64,000 nt of DNA, from assembly GCA_009929525.1 (NCBI GenBank), contig SAAH01000007.1, forward strand, positions 1 through 64,000. The letters run 5' to 3'. Every line of letters starts with the position of its first letter. The first letter of the stretch is position 1. Below are positions 2,495-61,768 of this stretch, in pieces. A model generated the notes under the pieces. It did not search any database and was not told the origin of the DNA. It was given only the letters and a program-made list of their open reading frames with translations. A program made the position numbers and the translations under genes. The DNA is from Clostridia bacterium. Lineage in GTDB: Bacteria > Bacillota > Clostridia > Lachnospirales > Lachnospiraceae.

Positions 2495-3792
2495 ATGTAC
2501 CGAAACGCGATAGAACAGTTATATCAATGGAAAGAAAAAAACGTCGTAAGCCTTTGATTATCGAAGGAGCACGACAGGTAGGAAAAACATGGCTGATGAA
2601 GGAATTCGGAGATCAGGCTTATGAGAACATCGTATATATTAATTTTGATTCGAATTCCAGAATGGATGAGCTTTTTGCCAGTGATCTGGATACAAAACGT
2701 CTGGTGCTGGGGTTGGAGCTTTATGTCGGACATAAGATTCAGGCGGAGAATACACTACTGATTTTTGATGAGGTACAAGAGGTTCCGCGTGCATTGACGT
2801 CACTTAAATATTTTTACGAAAATGCACCTGAGTATCATATTATATGTGTGGGCTCTCTTTTAGGAATTGCTCTCCATCAAGGAACTTCGTTTCCGGTAGG
2901 AAAGGTGGAATTTTTAAACCTTTATCCACTATCGTTTCCCGAGTTTCTGTGTGCTGTAGGATATGACCGGTTCGCAAAGCTTTTGGAGAAGCGCGATTAT
3001 GAAATGATTACTTCGTTCAAACAAACATATATTGATGCGTTGAAGCAGTATTATTTCGTCGGCGGCATGCCAGAGGCTGTGCAGAGTTTCGCAGAAGATA
3101 AGGATTTTAACGAGGTTCGAAATATCCAAAAAAGAATTTTAACAGCGTATGAACAGGATTTTTCCAAACATGCACCAAATGAGATTGTGCCCAAGCTTCG
3201 TATGGTTTGGAACAGTATTCCCTCACAGCTGGCGAAGGAGAATAAGAAGTTCGTGTATGGTCTGGTTCGTGCAGGTGGACGGGCGAAGGACTATGAAACT
3301 GCGATTATGTGGCTCAGTGATTGCGGGCTGATTCATAAAGTAAGCCGAGTGAATGGGGCGGGACTTCCATTAAAGGCCGATGAAGAATTGAAGGCATTTA
3401 AACTGTTCATGGTAGATGTGGGATTATTAGGTTGTATGACAGGACTTCGTCAGCAAACTCTTTTAGATGGGAACGCTCTTTTTGTGGAATTTAAAGGTGC
3501 ACTTACAGAACAGTATGTATGCCAACAGTTAAAGACATTGGATGATTTAAATATATATTATTACACTAATGACAGAGGTTCCTGTGAAGTGGAGTTTGTC
3601 ATCGATGATGGCGGAAATGTAATTCCAGTCGAGGTAAAAGCTGAAACAAATTTGAAAGCTAAAAGTCTGCGTACCTATACGGAGAAATATAATCCTGAGT
3701 ATGCTATTAGAACATCCATGTCTGATTATAAGAAAGAAGAATGGTTGCTAAATCTTCCTTTATATGCGATCGAGAATATACGTAACATGTAA
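2495..3792 (+). CDS. AAA ATPase with DUF4143-like C-terminus; N-terminus in a different frame (see findings)
   Basis: IIEGARQVGKTWLMKEFG Walker A and C-terminal VIPVEVKAETNLKAKSL; RBS aggaggt plus ATG at 2495 encodes MYRNAIEQLYQWKEK, then a -1 change at A AAA AAC (2536-2542). Confidence 0.8.
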
Positions 3793-4060
3793 AGTGTGGA
3801 AAATGTTTTTATAAGAGATTTCTGCAACTATTTATATTTATCATTAACTAGGGAATAACCACCCACATTCGCTCCCCCTATTTAATATGAAAGAAAAGCG
3901 GCCAACCCAAATACGGTTGATTGCTACATATTAGCAGTTTACCATTTGCTGTGAGATATCAGTCAGCTGTGAATCAGTTACTAATCAGTTATCAGATCAT
4001 CTAATAGCTATATGCCAGCGACTTTGAACCGTCATCTGTCATCTCCGTTACCAATAAACA

Positions 4061-4244
4061 GCCAGAGATTTTGCGGACGGCAGGTTTACAAACAATTTGA
4101 GAGCGTTTAGAGGATCTTACAAGATCGGCGCCCTAGCAAGCACTTAGCGAAGAGCCCACTGGCGATGAGCTTAGTGCGGGTTGGGCGAAAGCTCGGAAGT
4201 CCTCTGCTCTCGTTTGTAAACCTGCCGTCCGCAAAATCACTGGC
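4061..4244 (+). repeat. 184-bp long-hairpin element, copy 1 (possible structured ncRNA)
   Basis: gccagagattttgcggacggcaggtttacaaac(aattt)gagagc pairs with gctctcgtttgtaaacctgccgtccgcaaaatcactggc; internal stems agagga/tcctct and cgccc/gggcg. Confidence 0.85.
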
Positions 4245-4452
4245 GTCCACAAAATCACTATCATCCCCAAGAATCCACCCCATATATAACTTCACCTTGC
4301 CTGCCATTTCCAAATGTGATAAAATGTGACTGTTTAGTCAAGCATATCATTTCTAACGATTGATGCAGCGAAGACTGAAACATTCCACATAATAAAACAC
4401 TATCATGTAATCATTCACAAAAACAAATGATATAGAAAAGAGGACATAGATT

Positions 4453-51750: not shown

Positions 51751-53589
51751 ATGGATTTGGACAAGTTGAAGAATCAAAAACCGAAGAGACCGGTGATGTT
51801 TTATTACCTGCTGGTATTTGGAATCTTGCTGGTATTGAATTTTGTAGTACTTCCGTGGATATCAGAGAGAAGTGTGTCTGAAACTACTTATGATGAATTC
51901 CTGACACAGGTGAATGGGCATAATGTGACAGAAGTTGAAGTTCAGGAACAAACTTCTACCATTTATTATGTTATCAAGCAGAATGGGAAAGAACAGGTAT
52001 GCAAAACTGGATTGATGAATGATCCTGATTTTGTATCAAGGCTTGAAAAAAGCGGAGCGACATTTACGCAGGTGATACCAAAGCAGCAGTCGCCGATATT
52101 CACCTTGTTATTGAGCTGGGTGATCCCTATTGTAATCTTTATCTTTATAGGTAATTTCCTGTCAAAGAAGCTTACCCAGGGACTTGGCGGCGGTGGTGCC
52201 GGTGCGATGTCATTTGGAAAGAGCAATGCGAAAGTATATGTAAAGTCCACCAGTGGAATCAAGTTTACAGATGTGGCAGGGGAGGACGAAGCAAAAGAAC
52301 TGTTGACAGAGATCGTGGATTATCTGCATCATCCGGAGATGTACCAGCAGATCGGTGCACAGATGCCTAAGGGGGCACTGCTTGTGGGACCTCCTGGAAC
52401 AGGTAAGACTCTTCTTGCCAAGGCAGTTGCAGGTGAGGCAAATGTGCCGTTCTTCTCCATATCAGGATCTGAATTTGTGGAAATGTTTGTTGGTATGGGA
52501 GCAGCTAAAGTCCGAGACCTTTTTAAACAGGCAAATGAAAAAGCTCCCTGCATTGTATTTATTGATGAGATTGATACGATAGGAAAAAAACGTGATGGAA
52601 ATATCGGCGGAAATGATGAGAGAGAGCAGACACTTAATCAGCTCCTGACAGAGATGGATGGATTCGATGGTTCAAAGGGAGTTGTCATCCTGGCTGCGAC
52701 AAACCGCCCGGATTCCCTTGATCCGGCACTCCTTAGACCGGGGCGTTTTGACAGGAGGATCCCTGTGGAGCTTCCTGATCTGCAGGGAAGAGAAGAAATC
52801 CTCAAAGTCCACGCAAAGAAGATAAAGATATCAGATAATGTGGACTTTAGTGCGATAGCAAAAGCCGCTGCTGGTGCATCTGGAGCTGAACTCGCAAATG
52901 TGGTCAATGAAGCTGCACTTCGGGCAGTAAGAGATGGAAGAAAATTCGCCAATCAGGCGGATATGGAAGAAAGTATTGAGGTGGTTATCGCAGGTTATCA
53001 GAAGAAGAATCGGGTATTATCCGAAAAGGAGAAGCTGATCGTGGCTTATCATGAGGTTGGACATGCACTGGTAGCTGCAAAGCAGACAGATTCTGCACCT
53101 GTTCATAAGATCACGATCATTCCAAGAACTTCCGGGGCTCTCGGCTACACCATGCAGGTAGAGGATGGAGAACATTTCCTGATGTCCAAGGAAGAGCTGG
53201 AGAATAAGATCGCTACCTTTACAGGCGGAAGAGCGGCGGAAGAATTGGTATTTCATTCGATAACAACCGGGGCATCCAACGATATCGAACAGGCTACAAA
53301 GCTTGCCAGGGGCATGATCACACGATTCGGTATGAGTGATGAATTTGATATGGTAGCGATGGAAAATGTATCTAACCAATATCTTGGCGGGGATGCGTCC
53401 CTGACTTGTTCCTTTGAGACACAGACAATGATCGACCGAAAGGTAGTGGAGCTGGTGCGGACTCAGCATGAGAAGGCAATGGGGATTTTGCAGGAGAATA
53501 TTATGAAACTGCATGAACTTGCGAAGTATCTTTATGATAATGAGACGATTAGTGGGGATGAGTTTATGCAGATCCTGAATAAAGGATAG
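51751..53589 (+). CDS. ftsH: ATP-dependent zinc metalloprotease FtsH
   Basis: [28 protein letters not shown] zinc motif. Confidence 0.96.
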
Positions 53590-53599
53590 AGAAGCGGAC

Positions 53600-53782
53600 G
53601 CCGATGCGGCGGAGGGGATGAGTTTGTGGGCGGCGGATAACGCTGTGCCGATCTAACTGCCAACTGCGACTAAGAGCGCTCGGGAGAGCCCTCGCGTCTA
53701 AGTCTTAGTAGGCAGTGGATATCGTCACAGCTAAGGGCATCCGCCAAATTGCCCGCAAACTCATCCCCTCTGCCGCATCGGC
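53600..53782 (-). repeat. 183-bp long-hairpin element, copy 2 (possible structured ncRNA)
   Basis: Minus strand gccgatgcggcagaggggatgagtttgcgggc(aattt)ggcggat pairs with atccgccgcccacaaactcatcccctccgccgcatcggc; internal stems ctgtg/cacag, actgcc/ggcagt; core motifs shared with copy 1. Confidence 0.85.
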
Positions 53783-53930
53783 TGTGTTGGGTGGGGGAGG
53801 TTTGAAAAAGATGAGCAAGTCTGGAGTTGGTGTAAGAGAGACAAACTTGTAAAAAATTCTCATCACCCCTTTGAAAAAAATGAAATATGTGGTATGATTC
53901 AAGCAATATGATTTTTTGAGGAGGATGGAC

Positions 53931-61712: not shown

Positions 61713-61768
61713 AATGAAATGATTATAATATGTAATGTCCATTCATTTCATGTTATAATCATTTCATT
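61713..61768. repeat. Perfect 16-bp inverted repeat upstream of MocR gene
   Basis: AATGAAATGATTATAA (61713-61728) / TTATAATCATTTCATT (61753-61768). Confidence 0.85.

Follow-up and report, generated by a model that had tools for sequence, protein, structure and literature searches.

Apparently undescribed hairpin repeats of Lachnospiraceae chromosomes that combine a conserved folded core with variable arms

The 64,000-nucleotide stretch of a Clostridia bacterium genome analyzed here (the window) contains two long hairpins, the arm pairs of which exceed in length all other inverted repeats detected there (Table 1). Copy 1 has 33-nt arms that are 97% complementary and separated by 118 nt, while copy 2 has 32-nt arms, 94% complementary, separated by 119 nt. 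The folding energy of copy 1 is -110.7 kcal/mol against -60.3 ± 4.9 kcal/mol for dinucleotide shuffles (z = -10.3; equaled by 0 of 200 shuffles), and that of copy 2 is -132.3 against -82.2 (z = -11.1). An earlier note had described a hairpin at 4061-4244, and it lies exactly there, and an AATTT confined to the 5' side, a gagagc/gctctc second stem, and the core motif are all present in the sequence as claimed. The recurrence of the same layout at a second site, also claimed, holds for the layout but not for the orientation: copy 2 (53600-53782) aligns with copy 1 only after reverse complementation and is thus a minus-strand copy. Conserved feet, ACCAATAAACA before and GTCC after the arms, take the element further than the arms to which it had been confined.

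Table 1. Features of the two hairpin copies in the window
Feature	Position	Strand	Basis
Copy 1, conserved 5' foot ACCAATAAACA	4050-4060	+	Family consensus CCAACAaACA, 89 copies side by side
Copy 1, variable 5' arm, 33 nt	4061-4093	+	Inverted repeat; 89-copy layout
Copy 1, one-sided bulge AATTT (family AATTT/ACTTT)	4094-4098	+	Sequence
Copy 1, second stem, 5' side GAGAGC (partner 4206-4211)	4099-4104	+	Fold; covariance structure
Copy 1, second one-sided bulge GTTT	4105-4108	+	Fold
Copy 1, conserved core, 58.7 bits	4116-4199	+	Covariance model R2; covariation
Copy 1, second stem, 3' side GCTCTC	4206-4211	+	Fold; covariance structure
Copy 1, variable 3' arm, complement of 4061-4093	4212-4244	+	Inverted repeat
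Copy 1, conserved 3' foot GTCC	4245-4248	+	89-copy layout
Copy 2, 5' foot, ACCCAACACA on minus strand	53783-53792	-	Sequence; 89-copy layout
Copy 2, variable 5' arm	53751-53782	-	Inverted repeat
Copy 2, conserved core, 89.7 bits	53645-53728	-	Covariance model R2
Copy 2, variable 3' arm	53600-53631	-	Inverted repeat
Copy 2, 3' foot GTCC (plus strand GGAC)	53596-53599	-	Sequence; 89-copy layout

The core of copy 1 reads ATC..CCTA..ACTTAG, a tip, and CTTAGT..GTTGG..AAGCT, with conserved T.T mismatches. The copy 2 hairpin starts 10 nt behind the stop codon (53587-53589) of an upstream 612-aa ORF, which by inspection may encode FtsH. The 3' foot is tandemly repeated after copy 1 (GCAAAATCACTGGCGTCC / ACAAAATCACTATCATCC, window 4226-4260); elsewhere in this genome, several GCAAAAGTTATGGCGTCCCCATGAAA units stand behind one copy (contig C131; loci L002 and L096) and longer units behind another (contig C93; L110). 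An AT-rich hairpin at 61713-61768, with 25-nt arms that are 92% complementary and a 6-nt loop, is unrelated to these repeats.

A first pass with a pattern derived from the shared core returned four copies in this genome and relatives in the genus and family. The covariance-model search of related genomes that the earlier note had proposed, performed with a model of the inner 123 nt of the element, gave 38 copies in this genome. Of four congeners searched, three had 41, 49, and 55 copies, and the other had none. A family-wide sample yielded matches in 24 of 299 genomes, with per-genome copy numbers that are lower bounds, because the filters were stricter there and the number of candidates was capped. 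With a refined 83-nt core model, matches were found in 7 of 344 genomes sampled from the order, 6 of them in the same family, and in 2 of 341 sampled from the class, both again in that family. A pattern scan of named genomes yielded at least 116 stretches; the titles listed were all Lachnospiraceae, Dorea, Acetatifactor, Roseburia, Eubacterium, Lachnotalea, or unspecified Clostridia, mostly from gut and rumen assemblies. Neither viral contigs nor plasmids or phages contained a match. Rfam, searched at gathering and permissive thresholds, holds no family that explains the hairpin, with no match at the gathering level and chance-level matches only below it, and no description of the repeats was found in a limited search of openly licensed full texts. 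The hairpins apparently represent an undescribed, noncoding, chromosomal repeat family of Lachnospiraceae, ∼180 to 260 bases long and present in some species at ∼40 to 55 copies per genome.

The anatomy of the element is constant across 89 copies from the genus: the foot CCAACAaACA, an arm of ∼30 bp, an AATTT/ACTTT-like bulge, the second stem, a GTTT-like bulge, the core, the returning strand of the second stem, the complementary arm, and the foot GTCC. The conserved feet lie outside the arms (ACA before, GTCC after), and the 5' arm starts with G and its complement ends with C. Copies in other genomes have the same feet and core, different arms of up to 53 bp, and sometimes an additional outer stem. 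The contrast of a conserved core with variable arms, on which the earlier note had built its case, is therefore genuine and family-wide, as the 89-copy layout, the arm comparisons, and the other genomes all indicate. One sub-family carries a ∼44-nt insert (TTGCATTGCATCCGGAAGGAGCTGCCAGTGGCAGG...) beside the ACTTT bulge, at different loci and between different arms (L046, L050, and G102:C1:1452944, which is L068). A single copy in the congener G102 (L072, ∼3240-3410) has a second, unrelated hairpin of ∼160 bp (TGTACATC...ATGTACA) inserted in its tip, and here the 3' arm has lost its match to the 5' arm, while the arms of the congener's copy do match.

Within the core, conserved T.T mismatches at two positions and two internal loops (GNA/GNA and ATCC/TAG) interrupt a helix whose constraint at the level of folding, as had been proposed, is borne out by abundant compensatory change. 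Two-sided changes occur in 18 of the 21 core pairs, and none of 500 shuffles reached the observed counts. Core cells are 92.9% paired against at most 52% when the partner strand is slid, percentages that lean upward because the structure was chosen on the same sequences, although the contrast with the slid versions stays large. Mismatches of the G.T type exceed A.C mismatches by 52 to 21 after clustering and by 32 to 17 without the edge pair, and this excess of about 2:1 is a suggestive hint, and only that, of a functional single strand, whether RNA or DNA.

The arms behave differently. They are ∼96% Watson-Crick complementary, yet in a pair of copies with 99% identical cores the arm identity is 0.45, which is random (0.47 when shuffled). 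Arms are visibly homologous within some sub-families and in other genomes, so replacement is not universal. With similar arms removed, arm mismatches in the genus comprise 17 wobble and 22 A.C pairs, giving no sign there of the strand-specific wobble tolerance expected of an RNA; the earlier argument from variable arms to selection on structure, taken as RNA structure, is not supported in that form. Arm mismatches in other genomes number 34 wobble versus 10 A.C. Taken together, the structural reading is right for the core, unproven for RNA, and probably the wrong explanation for the arms.

Orthologous copies in two close congeners offer a view of how arms change. The majority of these arms are almost unchanged, which rules out constant hypermutation in situ, and across ∼540 positions we counted 14 paired changes that preserve Watson-Crick complementarity versus 26 single changes, where independent change at the single-change rate would give ∼0.3 paired changes. 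Double transversions make up 6 of the 14, which fits the copying of DNA from arm to arm; selection for a paired stem could be an alternative source of the excess. One locus in a congener retains nothing but the arm ends, as a deletion derivative in which a change has been compensated. The G+C content of the arms is 64%, compared to 37 to 41% in the flanks, with about 0.40 G and 0.25 C in the 5' arm, and neither this richness in GC nor the G-rich 5' side is predicted by neutral drift plus arm-to-arm copying. Arms copied from the insertion site are contradicted by the conserved feet outside them.

A third pattern concerns the core at fixed loci. At two loci with orthologous copies in the congeners G102 and G299, the arms are 93 to 97% alike but the cores only 62 to 71%, and the picture is similar at a third; in all three cases the arms and flanks have been retained around a core or tip of a type present elsewhere in the same genomes. 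The exchanged stretches differ in their ends, a pattern that would suit conversion better than a fixed cassette. The replaced cores could instead reflect rapid change in situ, and conversion would have to work through only short flanking homology.

The position of the copies relative to genes is also nonrandom. With neighboring ORFs called mechanically, 70 of 135 copies have as their GTCC-side neighbor a gene whose 3' end faces the element, at a median distance of 46 nt, while the medians for the other combinations of gene and side are 145, 305, and 321 nt. The typical position is 10 to 50 nt past a converging gene's stop codon or directly behind a terminator, and at two loci, relatives without the full element carry a terminator-like hairpin at the equivalent place. 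Neighboring copies less than 1 kb apart are arranged minus-then-plus in 29 of 32 cases and plus-then-minus in none; related copies account for many of these cases, and between converging genes this order would follow from the gene-end rule alone. No constant replication-strand bias was found, the sign varying between genomes, and the genes between the paired copies inspected include neither a shared cargo gene nor an identifiable transposase or other mobilizing gene.

Given the dispersal of the copies and their patchy presence, a mobile element is the most economical explanation of these data, and insertion as a unit is likewise deduced from dispersal and from presence and absence. We therefore propose, with about even confidence, that the hairpins are a nonautonomous, chromosome-borne mobile repeat of Lachnospiraceae, the core of which is recognized by a putative enzyme and the arms of which are repaired by arm-to-arm copying. 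Under this proposal, a trans-acting enzyme would recognize the folded core and the feet and insert copies near gene ends or terminators, and conversion between copies would keep the cores alike. The arms would serve as a double-stranded spacer carrying little sequence information, and once the hairpin is extruded, template switching or conversion from one arm to the other would restore their pairing, perhaps aided by selection for a strong stem. A bolder and unlikely version is that of a mobile hairpin of a new class, in which it is the folded core that is transferred, being copied into resident gene-end hairpins, with arms remade as perfect complements by arm-to-arm DNA synthesis; if this were true, the identity of the element would reside in its fold and not in its terminal sequence.

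Candidates for the mobilizing enzyme were sought among known systems. The Y1 transposase of the RAYT type (PF01797) was not found in the draft assembly of this genome, which holds 38 copies of the repeat, and although PF01797 is present in the congeners G102, G299, and G301, no copies adjoin their Y1 genes, so we reject RAYT/Y1 as the mobilizer. A reverse transcriptase is also rejected, as the enzymes of this genome and of G102 look by eye like ordinary group II intron proteins; the copy-free congener G300 also encodes reverse transcriptases. Four comparisons of filled and empty loci gave no obvious target-site duplication and no precise empty site, in intergenic DNA too diverged to place the ends.

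The hairpins could instead be a structured noncoding RNA, or an RNA-derived mobile element, expressed from the plus strand, with core loops that bind a protein and arms that act as spacers of fixed strength. The element does share with Rfam's structured RNAs a covariation-supported secondary structure and conserved internal loops, and the strength of the core covariation, the asymmetry of the loops, the T.T (U.U) mismatches, the wobble excess in the core, and that in arms outside the genus all speak for such a molecule. It differs from them in matching no family at the gathering level, and no conserved sequence upstream of the feet suggests a common promoter. At the preferred sites, moreover, the plus strand is antisense to the gene at the GTCC end, and the dozens of dispersed copies and the own-genus arm mismatches free of wobble bias also count against it. 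We consider this reading unlikely.

Somewhat more doubtful is a role at gene ends, where the element would act in the sense strand of its neighbor as a terminator or as a stabilizer of the mRNA 3' end, which would explain its retention near stop codons. The short distance to the stop codon often leaves no room for a second terminator, and the presence of the element at two loci where a relative has a terminator-like hairpin, the GC-rich arms, and the A/T tracts on both flanks of the outer stem in some genomes agree with such a role. There is, however, no uniform U-tract, the sense strand continuing after the hairpin with TGTTTGTTGG or TGTGCACTGG, many copies are not beside a gene 3' end, and termination would not need so detailed a core.

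An ordinary family of MITEs or of REP/BIME repeats, moved by a known type of transposase and with arms that have merely diverged, appears improbable. Like MITEs (including ERIC/RU-1 and Correia), the element is noncoding, built on an inverted repeat, multicopy, patchy, and within their 100 to 260 bp, and like REP/BIME repeats, which are associated with RAYT Y1 transposases, it is short, dispersed, intergenic, palindromic, and often found in pairs of opposite orientation. MITEs are defined, however, by conserved terminal inverted repeats, and in this element conservation is lowest in the terminal arms, which show no relation between most copies of the genus, while short feet and a core are conserved; REPs are much shorter and conserved in sequence, compared to the ∼180 nt of this element, whose arms are free and whose core is conserved. 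The distribution of Y1/RAYT genes described above also stands against this explanation, and no target duplication was seen in the four locus comparisons, where the flanks are diverged.

Least probable of all is an attC-like site, a folded single-stranded DNA substrate for a tyrosine recombinase, which would account for the imperfect hairpin, the variable stem parts, the one-sided extrahelical bases, and the exchange of an inner module inside fixed arms, and whose 3' box GTTRRRY is approached by GTTRG in the element, but the element's box consensus, GCYTAC / GTTRGCN, departs from the attC R boxes (RYYYAAC / GTTRRRY) in the 5' box (NCYTAC) and at the sixth position of the 3' box, no integron integrase (TIGR02249) exceeded the curated cutoff in any of five genomes, no gene cassettes were seen between the copies inspected, and no replication-strand bias is constant.

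The family inverts the usual anatomy of small bacterial repeats, with free termini and a conserved core, and its dozens of natural arm pairs make the template-switch repair of palindromes measurable. The element also marks gene 3' ends in some gut Lachnospiraceae and could thereby influence termination, or the ends of mRNAs, at many genes.

Several individual loci show further arrangements of the repeats. In record CATBDC (L130, L132, L158, L164, and L175), head-to-head pairs share a common linker and an outer stem containing CTGTACGGTTGGA, and look as if they were one composite moving unit. A single G299 copy joins flanks that belong to two different G102 copies, the left flank of one and the right of the other (L089, L084, and L093), which seems to mark a genome rearrangement breakpoint at the element. 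Finally, two copies lie in a 4-kb gene-free stretch (L128, 2174-6252) together with several parS-like TGTTTCACGTGAAACA sites, bordered by genes that we presume, from how they read, to be rsmG and parA/parB.
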